DNA of 22,801 bases from a virus: positions 1 through 22,801 of the IMG/VR virus record IMGVR_UViG_3300048642_000079; one strand, written 5' to 3'. Below the pieces are notes generated by a model. The model ran no database searches. It saw only the letters and a program-made list of their open reading frames with translations, and was not told the DNA's origin. Positions 8,101 to 21,686 of the stretch are shown piece by piece. The position numbers and the translations under genes were made by a program. Within the stretch, counting starts at the first letter, position 1. Every line of letters starts with the position of its first letter.

Positions 8101-8559
8101 TTAGTTCATCCTCCGGGATTGCGGACTCACCCCGAGGAGGTCCGGCAGGAAAAGGTTGCTCGGCTTGCGGAAGGCCACGCGCCGAATGAAGAGCTGCTGC
8201 ACGAAGGGCATGAAGGTGTGGTAGGTCTCGTGCCCGCCGATGATGAAGATCGGCTTCCTCTGCCCCTGTGCGGCGGTCATGAAGGCTTCCGGCGTGAAGG
8301 AGATTCCCGGCGGCCGGTGCCAGACCATCACCATAGCGTTCCACGGCGGCTCGGAAAAGCCGTTCTCGACCATGAGGTCCATGGTCCGCTTCCCCGTGAT
8401 GACCACGCTGTCCTCGGTGAGCCCCGAGACGAATTGCTCCCAGAAGCGGGCCTCGTCCGGGTTGGAGAAGATGGGCAGCTCGCCCTTGCGGCCGATGCCG
8501 CCATGGTGGTCCACGGCGGCGATCAGGTTGACTTGCGGCATGTTGCTGGCGAGGCTCAT
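8101..8559 (-). CDS. folA: Dihydrofolate reductase
   Basis: A 152-residue protein close to the usual DHFR length. It shows the DHFR blueprint: NLIAAVDHHGGIGRKGELP (residues 11-29, nucleotide and substrate loop), the acidic residue of the folate site in NPDEARFWEQ, SVVITGKRTM (51-60, NADPH-binding turn) and IFIIGGHETYHTFMP (104-118). It would reduce dihydrofolate to tetrahydrofolate with NADPH. The start overlaps the ThyX stop by ATGA, so the two thymidylate-pathway enzymes are translationally coupled. ThyX does not itself make dihydrofolate, so DHFR may instead raise the general folate pool or serve host ThyA. Confidence 0.88.
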   Translation of the reverse strand: MSLASNMPQVNLIAAVDHHGGIGRKGELPIFSNPDEARFWEQFVSGLTEDSVVITGKRTMDLMVENGFSEPPWNAMVMVWHRPPGISFTPEAFMTAAQGQRKPIFIIGGHETYHTFMPFVQQLFIRRVAFRKPSNLFLPDLLGVSPQSRRMN

Positions 8560-9560
8560 TCGTAGGCATCCTCCGGCACACCCAGCGCCTTCTCGAAGGC
8601 ACGATGCTCCCGCTCCCCGACACCATCGGGCCGGGGCACGCCCAGCTCTACGCGATCAGCCAGCAGCTTGCGCAGGGCTTCCATCTCGATCCGGGAGAAG
8701 GTGTGAGCCCCCATCACGTAGTCCTCGAACGCCTCGAAGGTCCACGGGCACCACTGGCGCACGAGATCGCAGATGACCTCGGCGTAGTCCCGAATCTCCT
8801 TCTGGGCGTGCGGGTCGGCCCGGAGCGAGAGGAAGCGCAGCAGATTGTGCAGATCGACCTTCCAATACCATTGCGTGTAGACGTTCGGCGGGACGACCAT
8901 GCGGGCCAGCTCCCGGGCCATGCCGTGCTTCCCGGTGTGCGGCTCCCGGCCGTCCAGAACCTCCCGCTCTGCATCCGGGTCTGCCCCACACCGGCCGGGG
9001 ATGACATACTGGTCGCCGTCCTCGTTGAACCACGGCCAGCCGGTGTGCAGCTCCTCGTAGAGCTGGTAGGAACCCTCGCTCTGCTGGCGGATCGTCTCGC
9101 GCATGGCGAAGCGCACATCCTCCGGCAGAACCCCGGCGCGGCCCTGCTTGTTGTCGAGGCTCTGGGGCTGGATGTCGTCCACGTCCGGGATGTAGAATTC
9201 GCGGTCGAGGATCGAGTAGCGGGCGCTGGCCTCGTTCACGTTGGCCGTCCGGTGGCGAATCCACTGGCGGGCGACGAAGATCGGCAGCTTCACATGCAGC
9301 TTCAGCTCGCACATCTCGAAGGGGGTGCTGTGCCGGTGGCGCATGAGGTAGCGGATCAAGCCCCGGTCTTCCCGGACGGTCTTGGTGCCGGTGCCGTAGC
9401 TGACCCGGGCGGCCTGCACGATGGCCTTGTCGTCGCCCATGTAGTCCACGACGCGGATAAAGCCGTGGTCGAGGACGTTGTGGGTCCGGCCGATCTCGGC
9501 GTCCATTTTCTCGTTGAACGGGCGGGTCATCTCGCCCTCGTTTTCGATCTCAGCGTCCAT
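8556..9560 (-). CDS. thyX: Flavin-dependent thymidylate synthase ThyX
   Basis: A 334-residue protein that would convert dUMP to dTMP using FAD, NADPH and methylene-tetrahydrofolate. The ThyX signature RHR-x7-S is at 102-112 (RHRTANVNEAS), followed by ARYS; upstream are ARVSYGTGTKT and RHRHSTPFEMCELKLHV split over residues 74-90, and downstream YWKVDLHNLLRFLSLR and the metal-free dUMP-binding Arg region. It is longer than typical ThyX (about 220-250 aa) because of an insert at about 145-210, as in several phage enzymes. ATG 9560 is preceded by AGGAG. An odd repeat of MDAEI occurs at residues 1 and 19. Confidence 0.92.
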   Translation of the reverse strand: MDAEIENEGEMTRPFNEKMDAEIGRTHNVLDHGFIRVVDYMGDDKAIVQAARVSYGTGTKTVREDRGLIRYLMRHRHSTPFEMCELKLHVKLPIFVARQWIRHRTANVNEASARYSILDREFYIPDVDDIQPQSLDNKQGRAGVLPEDVRFAMRETIRQQSEGSYQLYEELHTGWPWFNEDGDQYVIPGRCGADPDAEREVLDGREPHTGKHGMARELARMVVPPNVYTQWYWKVDLHNLLRFLSLRADPHAQKEIRDYAEVICDLVRQWCPWTFEAFEDYVMGAHTFSRIEMEALRKLLADRVELGVPRPDGVGEREHRAFEKALGVPEDAYE

Positions 9561-9816
9561 TCGCTCTCTCCTGATCTCTGAATTCGGCCATGGTCAGCCC
9601 GGCGATGGAGTCGCCGCACTGGCCGCAGTTGTGGGGGCCGCAGGCCGCGCACTGGAACACCCCGTCCTTCAGGACGAAGCCCCGCCGCGCGGCCCGGCGC
9701 TCATACTCCCGGTATTCCTCCAAGGGCATGGCGATGGCCTTCTGCCCGGCGAGGAGCGCCACGAGGGACGCCAGCCTGCCGGGCACATGGGCGACGATAG
9801 CGATGCGCTTAGTCAT
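9550..9816 (-). CDS. Small zinc-ribbon protein (88 aa)
   Basis: ATG 9816 is chosen because it has a GGGAAG site upstream and overlaps the upstream stop by 8 bases; ATG 9831 would add five residues. The N-terminus MTKRIAIVAHVPGRLASLVA is hydrophobic and basic; residues about 55-70 carry CAACGPHNCGQCG, a C-x2-C-x4-C-x2-C zinc knuckle. Function unknown. It overlaps the start of thyX by 11 bases. Confidence 0.6.
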   Translation of the reverse strand: MTKRIAIVAHVPGRLASLVALLAGQKAIAMPLEEYREYERRAARRGFVLKDGVFQCAACGPHNCGQCGDSIAGLTMAEFRDQERANGR

Positions 9817-10216
9817 GCTTCCCGCGCACATGCTCGATGGCCTTCTCCGGGTCCGCGCCGCGCCAGTCGGGCCAGTCCCGCAGCTCGTTCTTGCCCTGCT
9901 TCGAGACGATCAGACGGACGGCCTCGGCGGCCACGCGGTCGAAGGTCCAGTTCGGGCGGGCGGCCGAGATCGCGCGGGTCAGCCCATCGAGCCCGAGGAC
10001 CGCCACGTCCGTCCATTCGGCGGCGGCGGCCATGTGCATCGCCAGCTCCGGTTGGTCATCGTAGGTCTTGGGCTTCGGGTCGGCGTGGTAGCACTTCTCG
10101 ACCTCCTTCAGCTCCTTCTTGATGTGGTCGGTCACGCCCTTGGTGCGCGGCCCGGGGCCGAAGGTGGCGCGGCTGAAGGCGGCCTGCCGGGTGAGGTGGG
10201 CGACAAAATCTGTCAT
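9809..10216 (-). CDS. DUF550/MazG-like dATP/dGTP pyrophosphohydrolase
   Basis: A 135-residue protein from ATG 10216, preceded by GGAGAAA. It matches the DUF550 (dATP/dGTP diphosphohydrolase, N-terminal) family: QAAFSRATFGPGPRTKGV (11-28), HIKKELKEVEK (31-41) and AAEWTDVAVLGLDGLTRA (65-82). Glu35, Glu38, Glu67 and Asp70 fit the MazG-type metal-binding set. It would hydrolyse dNTPs to dNMP and pyrophosphate, shaping the nucleotide pool. Members of this family accompany PurZ in diaminopurine-genome phages but also occur in ordinary phages. It sits between the TopoVI-A-like gene and thyX. Confidence 0.78.
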   Translation of the reverse strand: MTDFVAHLTRQAAFSRATFGPGPRTKGVTDHIKKELKEVEKCYHADPKPKTYDDQPELAMHMAAAAEWTDVAVLGLDGLTRAISAARPNWTFDRVAAEAVRLIVSKQGKNELRDWPDWRGADPEKAIEHVRGKHD

Positions 10217-10283
10217 GTTCGATTTCTCCGGTTTTTGCGACACGCCGCTCGGGACGTGTAAAGGAATCGCGGGTTTCTGAGCG

Positions 10284-11204
10284 TCAGAGGTCGGTATCGT
10301 TGAGGCTGTCGATCAGGTCCGAGACCTCGTGCCAATGCTCGCGGACGCCGCGCAGGCGGGCACGCTCGGTCCTCTCCCTCTCCTCGGCCTCGTCCCACGG
10401 CCCGGGGTCGATGTGCGGCCGGATCGCGTCCCGGATCAGCCCCACCAGCACCGCCGGTTCGAGGGCGTCCAGCTCCCAGCTCGTGCGGCCGTGCCGGGCG
10501 ATGTAGTCGGCGGCCCGGGAGTCGGTGATCTTGGCCGGGTTGGGCGGCGGGGAATACTGGTCGATCTGGTCGCGGTTGAGCGCGATCCTCTGCACCTCGA
10601 CCTCGCCGTAGGACAGGATTTCCAGCCGGTCGCGGTTGTCCCGGGTCATGTCGAGGCCCGAGGGGTCATGGTCGCCGAGGTGGATCACCAGAGGCTCCTT
10701 GCCCGCGTCACGGGCGGCCTCCATGCGCTTCCCGGCCCGGTATGCCTCGGACACCGAGAGGTAGCCCTTGCAGGCCATGTAGCCGACGCGCATGGGGCGC
10801 ACGGCACGCTCGACCACGGAGGCCAGCGCCTCCTTCTCGACCCAGACCTCGATATAGCGATCCTGATCGGCCCAGCGGTCGGCGGCGTAGGCGTAGGGGA
10901 GGTCTTCGAGGATCGTGTCGATGTCCTCCTCGACCAGCCAGCCGTTCATGCTCCGGCCCCGGTCCTCGATCCCGTCCCACGGCAGCAGGCCAGCGAGCCG
11001 GGCGTCGGCGATCACCGAGCCGAGCTTCTTGTATTCCTTGTCGTTGTTCGGGATCAGGTCGCGGCTGACAAACTGGTAGTAGAGCTGGCGCAGGGTCAGC
11101 GTGTAGCCGTCGCTCTGGTAGGCGCGAATGATCGCGTCGGCTTGGTCGATGATCGCCAGACTCGACTTGCGGAATTCCTTGGTGATGAACGTCTCGTAGC
11201 TCAC
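10284..11204 (-). CDS. Topoisomerase VI subunit A/Spo11-like protein (tyrosine plus Toprim)
   Basis: A 306-residue protein from GTG 11204, 3 bases after the upstream stop. Residues 35-50 read TLTLRQLYYQFVSRDL, which looks like the catalytic-tyrosine helix of Spo11/TopoVI-A (RDIYY), with Tyr42/Tyr43 as candidates. A Toprim domain follows: YIEVWVEKEAL with Glu123 and PLVIHLGDHDPSGLDM with Asp178 and Asp180, the metal-binding Glu and DxD. A conserved SPPPNPAKITDSRAADYIA segment and WELDALEP lie near 230-265. The family is common in phages and usually called hypothetical. It may cut or bind DNA without a TopoVI-B partner, as proposed for Mini-A proteins. No B subunit is seen here. Activity is inferred. 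Confidence 0.75.
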   Translation of the reverse strand: MSYETFITKEFRKSSLAIIDQADAIIRAYQSDGYTLTLRQLYYQFVSRDLIPNNDKEYKKLGSVIADARLAGLLPWDGIEDRGRSMNGWLVEEDIDTILEDLPYAYAADRWADQDRYIEVWVEKEALASVVERAVRPMRVGYMACKGYLSVSEAYRAGKRMEAARDAGKEPLVIHLGDHDPSGLDMTRDNRDRLEILSYGEVEVQRIALNRDQIDQYSPPPNPAKITDSRAADYIARHGRTSWELDALEPAVLVGLIRDAIRPHIDPGPWDEAEERERTERARLRGVREHWHEVSDLIDSLNDTDL

Positions 11205-12392: not shown

Positions 12393-13496
12393 TTACTTGA
12401 CCGCGACCAGATCGAGGATGTTGCCACCCTTCCGCTCGATGGCGACGCGGGCGTCTTGGTGCGGGATCGTCTTGGCGTAGGCCGTGACGGCCGTGGTGGC
12501 GTCCCAGACGGTCTCGATGGGGCGGCCTTCCTCGCGCTCGTGGGCGGCTTGGATGGCCTTCGCCTCGCTCTTGGTGAAGCGGCTGGCGAGGAATTTGTCG
12601 AGATCGTCATCGACGCGCTTCTGCTGGGCCTCGGCGATGGTCTGTTCGATGGGCGCGGCCGAGGCGTGCGAGTATTCCATCAAGACCGGGCTGATCTCTT
12701 CGAGCCAGCGATCCGGGGCCGAGCTGGTGTGGCGCAGGCGAATCTCCTTGAAGTCCTGCACGCCCCAGACGATCCGGTTCATGCACACATAGTCGAAGAG
12801 GAAGAACGCCGCGCCGATGCTCTGGGAGCCGACCTCGGAGTTCCAGACGAAGAAGCCGCGAGCGAGCGAGCCGCCCTGACCGTTCCGGCGATCCTTCATC
12901 TCGATCCGGTTGGTCTCGTCGGCGAGGAAGACGAAGATGTCGCGGTCGGAGCCGTAGATCGTCGTGTTGTCGCGGGTGATGTCAACCTGCTTGCCGAATT
13001 CGCCGGGGACGCGGAAGTCGCCCGTGCGGCCGTCACCGAATTTCTGGATCAGGGCCGAGGTGATGTCCGAGTTCCAGACCCGGCCGTAGTTCGGGCCGGT
13101 GGCCGCCCGCAGCTCGTTGGTCACGTCGCCGGTCGAGGTCCGCAGCAGCTTCACATCCTCGGCGTCGCGGTTGAAGCGCAGACCGTAGTTCATGCAGTCG
13201 GCCACGATAGGCGCGGGCAGCTTGCGGAGGTAGGAGGCGGGAGCGCCGGAGAGCTGGGCGAGCTGGCCGAAGGACCAGTGGGTCGGGTCGGCGAGGCCGT
13301 CTTCCCCGGCGATGGTGATGCCCTTGATCGGGTCGGCGGCGTGGGGCTGGACTTCGATCTGGCGGGTCGAGATCGTGCGCTGGGTCGAGGCTTCCCGGGA
13401 GGCGATGGCCTTCTGGTTCAGCTCGGTCAGGGACAGGAAACGCTCGTCTGCCGGACGGGAGGCCCACTGGCGGGATGCTTGCATCAGGGTAGTCAT
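12393..13496 (-). CDS. DUF932 (phage/plasmid-like TIGR03299) family protein
   Basis: A 367-residue protein typical in length for DUF932. Recognisable segments are WSFGQLAQLSGAPASYLRKL (residues about 74-93), LRAATGPNYGRVWNSDI, DIFVFLADETNRIE, GFFVWNSEVGSQSIGAAFFL and RIVWGVQDFKEIRLRHT, which recur in this family across phages and plasmids. The biochemical role is unknown; a link to DNA replication or anti-host functions has been suggested for some members but is not established. It is the first gene after the promoter at 13559-13587, which suggests high early expression. Confidence 0.85.
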   Translation of the reverse strand: MTTLMQASRQWASRPADERFLSLTELNQKAIASREASTQRTISTRQIEVQPHAADPIKGITIAGEDGLADPTHWSFGQLAQLSGAPASYLRKLPAPIVADCMNYGLRFNRDAEDVKLLRTSTGDVTNELRAATGPNYGRVWNSDITSALIQKFGDGRTGDFRVPGEFGKQVDITRDNTTIYGSDRDIFVFLADETNRIEMKDRRNGQGGSLARGFFVWNSEVGSQSIGAAFFLFDYVCMNRIVWGVQDFKEIRLRHTSSAPDRWLEEISPVLMEYSHASAAPIEQTIAEAQQKRVDDDLDKFLASRFTKSEAKAIQAAHEREEGRPIETVWDATTAVTAYAKTIPHQDARVAIERKGGNILDLVAVK

Positions 13497-13648: not shown

Positions 13649-16195
13649 TCAGCCGCATTTGCTGTGACCGCAGCTCGTGCAGACCTCGCAGCCGCCCTCG
13701 GGCTTCAGGGCATACTCCCCGCAGCTCGGACACCGGCTCAGCGGGCCGTGGGCGATGTCGTTGACGGCGAGGCTCTGGGTGGCGTCCTCGGGCCATGCGA
13801 CGCCCGTGCTGCCCTCGTGGCCGTAGGGGGGCACGCTCTGGGCCTTCCGGTAGGCTTGCTCGATGGTGGTGACGCCCGGCATGGCCTTGATGGTCTGAGC
13901 CGGGCCGCCGACCTCCATATGCTCCTTCAGCTTCGTGCCGATGGCCGCGACGAGCGAGGGCTGGTAGCCCCGCTGGCCCCAGAAGCCGCCGGTCGCCGTC
14001 GAGTGAATCTGCTTCAGCTCGCCGGGGATGAAGTCGGCCGAGAAGGGACGCCGCATGACGGCCGAGATCATCCGGGCCAGTGCGGTCATCCATTCGTCGT
14101 GGGTCGGATCGCTCGACCGCAGGAAGACCTCGAAGGGCCGGACCACGCCGTTCTCTTCGATGTCGTTGACGGTCAGGTAGACCGCATCCAGACTCCCGAC
14201 CTTGATCTTGTAGGTCGAGCCGGTCAGCGCCTCCGGGCGATCCGGCAGCACAGCCGGGCCGTAGTGCGCGGCGGCGGCCTCGGGCTCCCACTCGTGGGCG
14301 TTGGCCTCGACCTCGATCTCCGGCTCCTCCTTGGGCTTCTCCTCGACGCTCAGCACCGACCCGGTGATTTCGTTCGGCCGGTAGGTGGTGCAGCCTTTGC
14401 AGCCGGACTCGTAGGCGTCCATGTAGACGTTGGCGAAGTCATCGAACGAGATGTCTTCGGGCAGGTTGATCGTCTTCGAGATCGAGCTGTCGATCCACAT
14501 CTGGGCCACGGCCTGCATCGCGAGGTGCTGGTCAGGCGTGAGCGTCTGGGCCGTCACGAAGTAGCTGGGCAGCTCGCCGTAGGTGAAGTCCGGCCCGGGC
14601 AGGAGATCGCCGTCCGGGTCATCTTCGAGGCTGTCATGCCACTTGCGATAGAGCGCCACGGCATAGTCCTCGACGCGCTCCTCGGTCTTCGAGCCGTCCT
14701 TCTGAAGCACCTTGCGGATGTAGCCGAAGTCGAACATGGGCTCGATCCCGCCGGACACGTTGCCCGCGTAGAGCGAGATGGTGCCGGTGGGGGCGATGGA
14801 GAGGAGGTGCGAGTTGCGGATGCCGTGCTGCCGGATGTCGTCAATGACATCGGCGGGCATACGCTCGGCCGCGAAGGTGCCCGGGGCGAGGTAGCCTTCC
14901 GCCTCGAACGCCGGGAACGCGCCCTTCTCCTTCGCCAGCTCAATCGAGGCGCGGTAGGCTTCGACGGCGATGAATTCCAGCACCTTCCCGGTCAGCTCGC
15001 GGGCTTCGTGCGAGCCGTAGTCGCGGCCGGTCATGGCGAGCATGTCGGCGAGGCCGGTGACGCCCAGACCGATCCGGCGCTTCTGCTGGGACTCGTGGGC
15101 CTGTTGGGGCAGCGGGAAGAGGGACACATCGTTCACGTTGTCCATCATCCGCACGGCGGCCCAGACGGTGCGGCGCAGCTTCTTCGGGTCGATCCCGGCA
15201 TGGCCGATGGAGCCCCCTTTGAAGTCGGTCTTCATGCCCTTGATCCGCTCCCAGACCGGCGTGCGGACCATCTTGGCGAGGTTGATCGAGCCCAGCAGGC
15301 ACGCGCCGTAGGGGGGCAACGGCTGTTCGCCGCAAGGATTCGTAGCGGCGATTTTCTCGCAGTAATTCAAGTTGTTAGCGTGGTTGATGCGGTCGATGAA
15401 GATCACCCCGGGCTCGGCCGCCGCGTAGGTGGCGTGCATGATCTTCTCCCAGAGGTCCACGGCCCGGACGGTGCGGTAGACCTTGCCGTTGAACATGAGG
15501 TGCCAGTCGGCGTCGTGCTTGACGGCTTCCATGAACGGATCGGTGACGAGGACGGACAGGTTGAACATGCGGAACCGGGCCGCGTCCTGCTTCGCCGTGA
15601 TGAAGTCTTCGATGTCGGGGTGGTCGCACCGCATGGTGCCCATCATCGCCCCGCGCCGGGAGCCCGCCGACATGACCGTGCGGCACATCGAGTCCCAGCA
15701 GTCCATGAAGGTGAGCGGCCCAGAGGCGTCGGCCCCCAGCTTCTCGACCAAGGCCCCCTTGGGCCGGATCGTGCTGAAGTCGTAGCCGATGCCGCCGCCC
15801 TGCTGCATGGTCAGCGCGGCCTCGCGGAGCATCGAGAAGATGCCATCCATGGAGTCGGGGATCGTGCCCATCACGTAGCAGTTGAAGAGCGTCACGGCCC
15901 GGCCAGTGCCCGCGCCAGCGACGATCCGGCCCGCCGGGATGAACGCGAAGTCGGCCATGGCCTCGGCGAAGCGTTCGGTCCAGACTTCCTTCTCGGCGGG
16001 CAGCTCGGCGTCGGCCAGAGCTTCGGCGATCCGGTAGATCGTGTCGTCCACGGTCCCGTCGATGGGCTCCTGCGTCTTGTTGTCCTTGAAGCGATACTTC
16101 ATGTCCCAGATTTGCTCCGAGATCGGAGCCGAGAACCGGGTCGGTGCGATGGCGCGGCCGCCGCTCTCGCGCATCTTGTCGTAGAGGTTGGTCAT
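13649..16195 (-). CDS. nrdJ: Class II (adenosylcobalamin-dependent) ribonucleotide reductase
   Basis: An 848-residue enzyme reducing ribonucleotides to deoxyribonucleotides with vitamin B12. NPCGE at 286-290 holds the thiyl-radical Cys288; Cys106 (FNCYV) and Cys299 (YGACLLGSINL) form the redox pair, with the same 11-residue spacing as in characterised class II enzymes. GGGIGYDFSTIRPKG (133-147) and GSRRGAMMGTM (178-188) are also typical, as is APTGTISLYAGNVSGGIEP split near 500. The C-terminus has a zinc-ribbon-like set (CPSCG, CEVCTSCGHSKCG) that supplies the reducing thiols. No B subunit (nrdF) is needed. It needs B12 from the host, as expected for many marine alphaproteobacteria. A hairpin directly follows. 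Confidence 0.95.
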   Translation of the reverse strand: MTNLYDKMRESGGRAIAPTRFSAPISEQIWDMKYRFKDNKTQEPIDGTVDDTIYRIAEALADAELPAEKEVWTERFAEAMADFAFIPAGRIVAGAGTGRAVTLFNCYVMGTIPDSMDGIFSMLREAALTMQQGGGIGYDFSTIRPKGALVEKLGADASGPLTFMDCWDSMCRTVMSAGSRRGAMMGTMRCDHPDIEDFITAKQDAARFRMFNLSVLVTDPFMEAVKHDADWHLMFNGKVYRTVRAVDLWEKIMHATYAAAEPGVIFIDRINHANNLNYCEKIAATNPCGEQPLPPYGACLLGSINLAKMVRTPVWERIKGMKTDFKGGSIGHAGIDPKKLRRTVWAAVRMMDNVNDVSLFPLPQQAHESQQKRRIGLGVTGLADMLAMTGRDYGSHEARELTGKVLEFIAVEAYRASIELAKEKGAFPAFEAEGYLAPGTFAAERMPADVIDDIRQHGIRNSHLLSIAPTGTISLYAGNVSGGIEPMFDFGYIRKVLQKDGSKTEERVEDYAVALYRKWHDSLEDDPDGDLLPGPDFTYGELPSYFVTAQTLTPDQHLAMQAVAQMWIDSSISKTINLPEDISFDDFANVYMDAYESGCKGCTTYRPNEITGSVLSVEEKPKEEPEIEVEANAHEWEPEAAAAHYGPAVLPDRPEALTGSTYKIKVGSLDAVYLTVNDIEENGVVRPFEVFLRSSDPTHDEWMTALARMISAVMRRPFSADFIPGELKQIHSTATGGFWGQRGYQPSLVAAIGTKLKEHMEVGGPAQTIKAMPGVTTIEQAYRKAQSVPPYGHEGSTGVAWPEDATQSLAVNDIAHGPLSRCPSCGEYALKPEGGCEVCTSCGHSKCG

Positions 16196-21416: not shown

Positions 21417-21608
21417 GAGCTGGCGGCCGAAGAGCTGGCGGCGGCGGGAGCTGGCGGCCCCGGCTGGCCCGGATCGTGGCGGCGGGAGCTGGCCCGGGAG
21501 CTGGCCCGGGAGCTGGCGGCGGGAGTTGGCGGCGGGAGCTGGCCCGGGAGCTGGCGGCGGGAGCTGGCCCGGGAGCTGGCGGCGGCGGGAGCTGGCCCGG
21601 GAGCTGGC
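21417..21608 (+). repeat. GAGCTGGC array at about 12-bp spacing
   Basis: Twelve exact copies of GAGCTGGC plus one GAGTTGGC (21523) lie in 192 bp, starting at 21417, 21432, 21448, 21486, 21498, 21510, 21536, 21548, 21561, 21573, 21589 and 21601; one more copy is at 21340. Units are GGGAGCTGGCCC or GGGAGCTGGCGG. Translated frames give only Pro/Gln/Leu/Ser or Gly/Ser/Trp low-complexity peptides, so I treat it as non-coding. Confidence 0.7.
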
Positions 21609-21686
21609 CCGGCCGGATAGGGGACTCCCGCGTGGGCACGCGCGGGAGCGTTCCCCGGGGCCGTGGCGTCCATTAGCTACCGCCAG

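Follow-up and report, generated by a model that had tools for sequence, protein, structure and literature searches.

Spo11, the enzyme that cuts DNA in meiosis, has the DNA-cutting half of topoisomerase VI (Topo VI) as its ancestor and probably descends from a topoisomerase no longer capable of strand passage. The Mini-A family was reportedly named by Takahashi et al. in 2020 (NAR Genom Bioinform lqz021), in a paper whose abstract is said to separate Mini-A from Topo VI and VIII by a C-terminal motif. A 2021 topoisomerase review presents Mini-A proteins as truncated homologues of Top6A that occur in archaeoviruses and bacteriophages, and its example of the family is 'Pseudomonas phage NP1 Mini-A' (PMC7614492). 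The related Topo VIII enzymes have weak activity only (PMC7614492), and SPO11 dimers alone cut DNA in vitro and remain bound to the 5' termini (PMC11922746). In the literature examined, no biochemistry of any Mini-A protein was found reported.

The stretch of DNA analysed here, termed the window, comprises 22,801 nucleotides of the virus record IMGVR_UViG_3300048642_000079 and carries a gene that a preliminary description, made from the letters alone, had proposed to encode a Mini-A-like topoisomerase or nuclease lacking a B subunit. The gene is a further member of the already described Mini-A family, from an uncultured phage. The reading favoured here, with a probability of roughly 0.65, is that Mini-A is a B-less relative of Topo VI-A and Spo11, acting as an ATP-independent homodimer that makes 5'-phosphotyrosyl double-strand breaks.

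The window gene, its family and its neighbours

The original observation on the gene was confirmed: the open reading frame at 10284-11204 is real, and its strand, which had been left unstated, is minus (Table 1). Translation starts with GTG at 11204 and stops with TGA at 10286-10284. The plus strand is likewise open across the interval, but without any Mini-A motif. A 33-residue reading frame terminates directly upstream of the start, and a promoter and terminator scan returned nothing above chance. Elsewhere in the window, a GC-rich tandem repeat array occupies 21440-21612; its units are 12, 25 and 38 bases long, GCTGGCCCGGGA being one example.

Table 1. Positions of the Mini-A gene, its predicted elements and neighbouring genes in the window.
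Feature	Position	Strand	Remarks
Mini-A coding sequence	10284..11204	minus (reads 11204 to 10284)	306 aa + stop, GTG start
5Y-CAP winged-helix domain, residues ~12-83	10956..11171	minus	AlphaFold2 of residues 1-112, VIA alignment to 1d3y_A 72-143
Toprim domain + C-terminal region, residues ~107-264	10413..10886	minus	VIA Z 10.9 to 1d3y_A
LRQLYYQ motif, residues 38-44	11073..11093	minus	Arg39 and Tyr43 invariant; Tyr43 the predicted nucleophile
Glu123 codon (VWVEK), Toprim metal-site acid	10836..10838	minus	invariant in 192; aligned with Topo VI-A Glu202
Asp178-His179-Asp180 codons (LGDHDPSG), Toprim DxD	10665..10673	minus	Asp178 and Asp180 without exception in 192; Topo VI-A counterparts in the alignment Asp254/Asp256
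WELDAL, residues 243-248	10461..10478	minus	Glu244, candidate partner of Arg39 in a cleavage-restraining clasp
dATP/dGTP pyrophosphohydrolase (PF04447), downstream neighbour	9809..10243	minus	E 1.7e-11
ThyX thymidylate synthase, downstream	8556..9560	minus	PF02511, E 2e-54
DUF932 protein, upstream	12393..13496	minus	
Ribonucleotide reductase large subunit, upstream	13649..16195	minus	

The Mini-A name given earlier proved correct, as the protein is 42% identical over 282 residues (E 9e-70) to NP1 gp49, the reviewed example of the family (PMC7614492), which has the same length and the same catalytic set. The window protein and all 53 aligned relatives match phrog_6247, 'DNA topoisomerase' in PHROGs (E 6e-105 for the window protein). 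The window protein also has 33% identity to an archaeal plasmid protein whose deposited name is 'Topo Mini-A'. The C-terminal W-E-L-D-A-L is nearly invariant in 192 family members and differs from the Topo VI sequence. By itself the protein gave no match in Pfam or NCBIfam, and PDB sequence searches with it or its profile found nothing; weak TP6A_N matches occur in 10 of 53 relatives and weak DUF2399/JetD_C matches in some members. On two points the preliminary description needs correction: the family is not simply left as hypothetical, since it bears the name DNA topoisomerase in PHROGs and in many phage records of RefSeq, and the novelty was overstated, bacteriophage Mini-A having already been described.

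The earlier statement that relatives occur in mobile elements is borne out by loci from GenBank phages, IMG/VR contigs, bacterial genomes and plasmids, in keeping with carriage by bacterial or archaeal viruses and other mobile elements. Matches were obtained by tblastn in 76 phage records with very different hosts, in hundreds of viral contigs (at least 554 stretches), in 47 plasmids and in bacterial and one archaeal genome assemblies. About 35 Streptomyces plasmids (hits H133-H150) carry distant relatives annotated as hypothetical proteins, with 29-34% identity among the matches listed, and these may represent a separate Mini-A branch. In Pseudomonas phage PIP (L295:3902-5294) and RDJL Phi 1 (NC_015466, 14385-15274), the Mini-A region is annotated as at least two short genes and the match is weak or in two pieces, which suggests frameshifts or sequencing errors.

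Nothing qualitative sets the window Mini-A apart from those described, and its setting is a Sessunavirus-like gene order. Synechococcus virus S-ESS1 and the window have in common the order MT-A70, DUF3310, dihydrofolate reductase (DHFR), ThyX, a pyrophosphohydrolase-like stretch, DUF932 and ribonucleotide reductase. Downstream of the window Mini-A, DHFR lies beyond ThyX, and an MT-A70 methyltransferase gene is located further along. The distance between pyrophosphohydrolase and DUF932 is ~0.8 kb in S-ESS1 versus 2.2 kb in the window, and no Mini-A match was detected anywhere in the 60 kb of S-ESS1. The Mini-A gene is thus accessory, having been gained or lost independently of the nucleotide-metabolism module. 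Positions 14359-16013 of S-ESS1 (L293) form an unannotated 1.65-kb gap in RefSeq in which small open reading frames occur, one of them related to the window pyrophosphohydrolase.

Fold, active site and candidate clasp

The full-length AlphaFold2 model of Mini-A, built with 53 sequences, reached a mean pLDDT of 94.4 and a pTM of 0.84. Foldseek with the whole model yielded one significant match only, M. mazei Topo VI-A (E 5e-4), possibly due to a differing angle between the two domains, and none of the full-length matches from a viral structure library was informative. Because of this poor yield, the winged helix was predicted and searched separately. With a second structural aligner, the best match of the Toprim half was M. 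jannaschii Topo VI-A (1d3y_A; Z 10.9, rmsd 3.0 Å, 139 residues). Close behind came MksG (Z 10.7), JetD (Z 10.2), further Topo VI structures, small Toprim proteins and Spo11.

The N-terminal domain modelled alone likewise matched 1d3y_A best, at residues 72-143 (Z 7.8, rmsd 2.3 Å, 69 residues), with an unrelated structure next at Z 6.4; this match, too, came from the second aligner, Topo VI-A not being shown in the Foldseek ranking for the isolated domain. A Z below 8 is, by the aligner's own note, not decisive alone. The aligned ranges, 12-83 and 72-143, are offset by 60 at both ends, so that Tyr43 falls on Tyr103, the catalytic residue of 1D3Y. As Topo VI-A ranked first in both domain searches and Tyr43 lies on this tyrosine, the winged-helix match is convincing despite the Z of 7.8, and the predicted fold does contain the 5Y-CAP domain. 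Since the winged helix begins at residue 12 in Mini-A versus ~70 in Topo VI-A, the N-terminal ~60 residues are missing.

LRQLYYQ (38-44), Glu123, Asp178 and Asp180 were located exactly as first described, and the proposed Spo11/Topo VI-A active-centre elements are kept, the three acids being paired with the Topo VI-A metal triad. Conservation was counted over 192 non-redundant family members, and R39, Y43, N53, Y58, R69, G72, D81, R84, E123, K124, S150, D178, D180, G183, A208, Q213 and P220 are invariant in all of them (192/192), which is not a matter of chance. Residue 42 is Tyr in 186 members, Phe in five and His in one; as Tyr43 never varies and Tyr42 does, Tyr43 is the likely nucleophile on these counts. 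The spacing of four from R39 to Y43 equals that from R102 to Y106 in M. mazei Topo VI-A, for which the roles of R102, Y106, E202, D254, D256 and E342 have been described (PMC13040014); the M. mazei numbering was verified on the chain sequence. In a profile-profile alignment against 63 Topo VI-A sequences, RQLYY pairs with RDLFY, E123 with Glu202 and DxD with DxD. The hhalign score was modest at full length (P 0.006, probability 6%) and P was 0.0006 for the N-terminal halves, with reversed-profile controls at P ~0.3, so the link to Topo VI-A is carried mainly by the fold and the active-site positions. Pairwise dN/dS between the window gene and five relatives was 0.23-0.41, and the family looks catalytically alive from its sequences.

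The closeness of MksG and JetD in the Toprim search, together with the DUF2399/JetD_C matches, would also suit a nuclease of that type, directed at competing plasmids or phages or at host DNA and leaving no covalent 5' adducts. Such a role is improbable, since MksG has no tyrosine at the 5Y-CAP position (PMC10123090), where Mini-A has its invariant Tyr43, and since neither SMC or Jet partner genes among the annotated neighbours nor a PADLOC defence-system match were found.

For Topo VI of M. mazei, R102 and E342 form a salt bridge that appears to keep the tyrosine off the metal site, the E342Q variant cuts more readily, and the position of the winged helix tracks Topo VI-B motion (PMC13040014). 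Glu342 lies in E-x-[QE]-[AS]-[LFM] and is Glu in 63/63 Topo VI-A sequences. Glu244 of Mini-A is kept in 191/192 members, the exception (L007) being a locus with a shortened reading frame. C-terminal hhalign of Mini-A against Topo VI-A did not pair Glu244 with Glu342, and the clasp is therefore read at motif level, from the common E-x-[DEQ]-[AS]-[LFM]. On this motif, the Arg-Glu clasp of Topo VI and Spo11 is probably kept in Mini-A, as Arg39-Glu244.

ATPase searches and proposed mode of action

No B subunit was found in the window, as had been noted: no HATPase_c match was returned, and the 306-aa protein itself has no GHKL region. The record being a 22.8-kb fragment, absence there alone is weak evidence, and the weight lies with the family as a whole. 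The GHKL ATPase domain (PF02518) was not detected in 43 Mini-A-bearing records, nor the Topo VI-B transducer domain (PF09239) in 37, in searches that took in five complete phage genomes and in which the positive controls worked. Mini-A adjoins genes of many kinds, for DNA polymerase, helicase, primase, exonuclease, integrase and PAPS reductase, and in the census of 121 neighbouring genes each family was found 3 times at most. With no recurring neighbour there is no obvious replacement partner, and a conserved one encoded next door is unlikely; an ATPase partner from the host or a distant locus is conceivable.

Mini-A might be imagined as one half of a split topoisomerase, its GHKL ATPase, e.g. 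a GyrB/ParE-like one, being supplied by the host or another phage protein, because Topo VI requires its B subunit for strand passage and the apparently kept clasp residues restrain the winged helix, which in Topo VI follows the motion of Topo VI-B. This is the least probable of the readings considered: the domains sought are absent from the 43 and 37 records, Mini-A lacks ~60 N-terminal residues of Topo VI-A, no neighbour recurs, and the hosts are very diverse.

A genuine topoisomerase, one that needs no ATP to relax or decatenate DNA by cutting, swivelling or passing, and resealing, and so aids phage replication, is unlikely, though less so than a split or MksG-like enzyme. It would fit the PHROGs and RefSeq name, the ATP-independent relaxation of supercoils by one Topo VIII (PMC7614492), the ability of SPO11 to reseal nicks (PMC11922746) and the place of the NP1 gene, between DNA ligase and a Sak4-type recombinase. 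Against it, the name 'DNA topoisomerase' rests on homology, no ATPase or gate partner was found, and S-ESS1 without Mini-A indicates that the gene is not required to replicate that genome type.

In the favoured reading of Mini-A as a B-less double-strand cutter, the protein would work as a homodimer, in which the winged helix of each protomer would bring its Tyr43 to the Mg2+ site of the other (Glu123, Asp178, Asp180). Each Tyr43 would attack one of the two strands, so that both are broken and the protein is left bound to the 5' ends. Without an ATPase subunit, Mini-A would cut, and perhaps reseal, with no ATP-driven strand passage, in a manner more Spo11-like than Topo VI-like. An Arg39-Glu244 clasp would probably prevent the tyrosine from reaching the metal site as long as the protein does not sit on suitable, bent or crossed, DNA. 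Judging from the gene neighbours, we infer that the accessory protein probably opens the DNA of the phage, or of the host, so that it can recombine or replicate. A bolder version, put forward tentatively, would make phage Mini-A a self-sufficient, clasp-regulated Spo11 that delivers programmed double-strand breaks without an ATPase, is fully active in hundreds of diverse phages and starts phage recombination or replication.

Comparison with known systems

The window protein agrees with the described Mini-A of NP1 in length, catalytic set, phage carriage and absence of a B subunit, and the gene itself is ordinary for the family. What is added here is that Tyr43 is favoured over Tyr42 as the nucleophile and that no ATPase is detectable across the family, together with the candidate clasp, the missing N-terminal ~60 residues and the accessory status.

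MksG and JetD have the Toprim fold in common with Mini-A, and MksG cuts without ATP (PMC10123090); they are found in SMC-type defence operons, whereas the window Mini-A adjoins nucleotide-metabolism genes. Topo VIII is, like Mini-A, a type IIB enzyme of mobile elements, but has its own or a fused ATPase part. Topo VI-A (M. jannaschii 1D3Y, M. mazei 2Q2E/9O0G, S. shibatae 2ZBK) shares the 5Y-CAP and Toprim fold and the Arg, Tyr, Glu, DxD and E-x-[DEQ]-A-L positions, with identity below 20% in structural alignments of the Toprim half. In comparison with it, Mini-A also lacks a stretch before the C-terminal motif, and the B subunit of Topo VI, comprising GHKL ATPase and transducer, has no counterpart found for Mini-A.

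Spo11 has the same fold (8URQ/8URU, Z 8.7-8.8) and the same predicted tyrosine and metal site, and mouse SPO11 can cut without any partner (PMC11922746). Unlike Spo11, Mini-A is a phage gene, and no Rec102/TOP6BL-like partner was seen. The predicted R39-E244 clasp makes the control of Mini-A testable, and the phage family, which has retained nothing but the cutting half and has its active site intact, offers a small and tractable natural comparison for Spo11.
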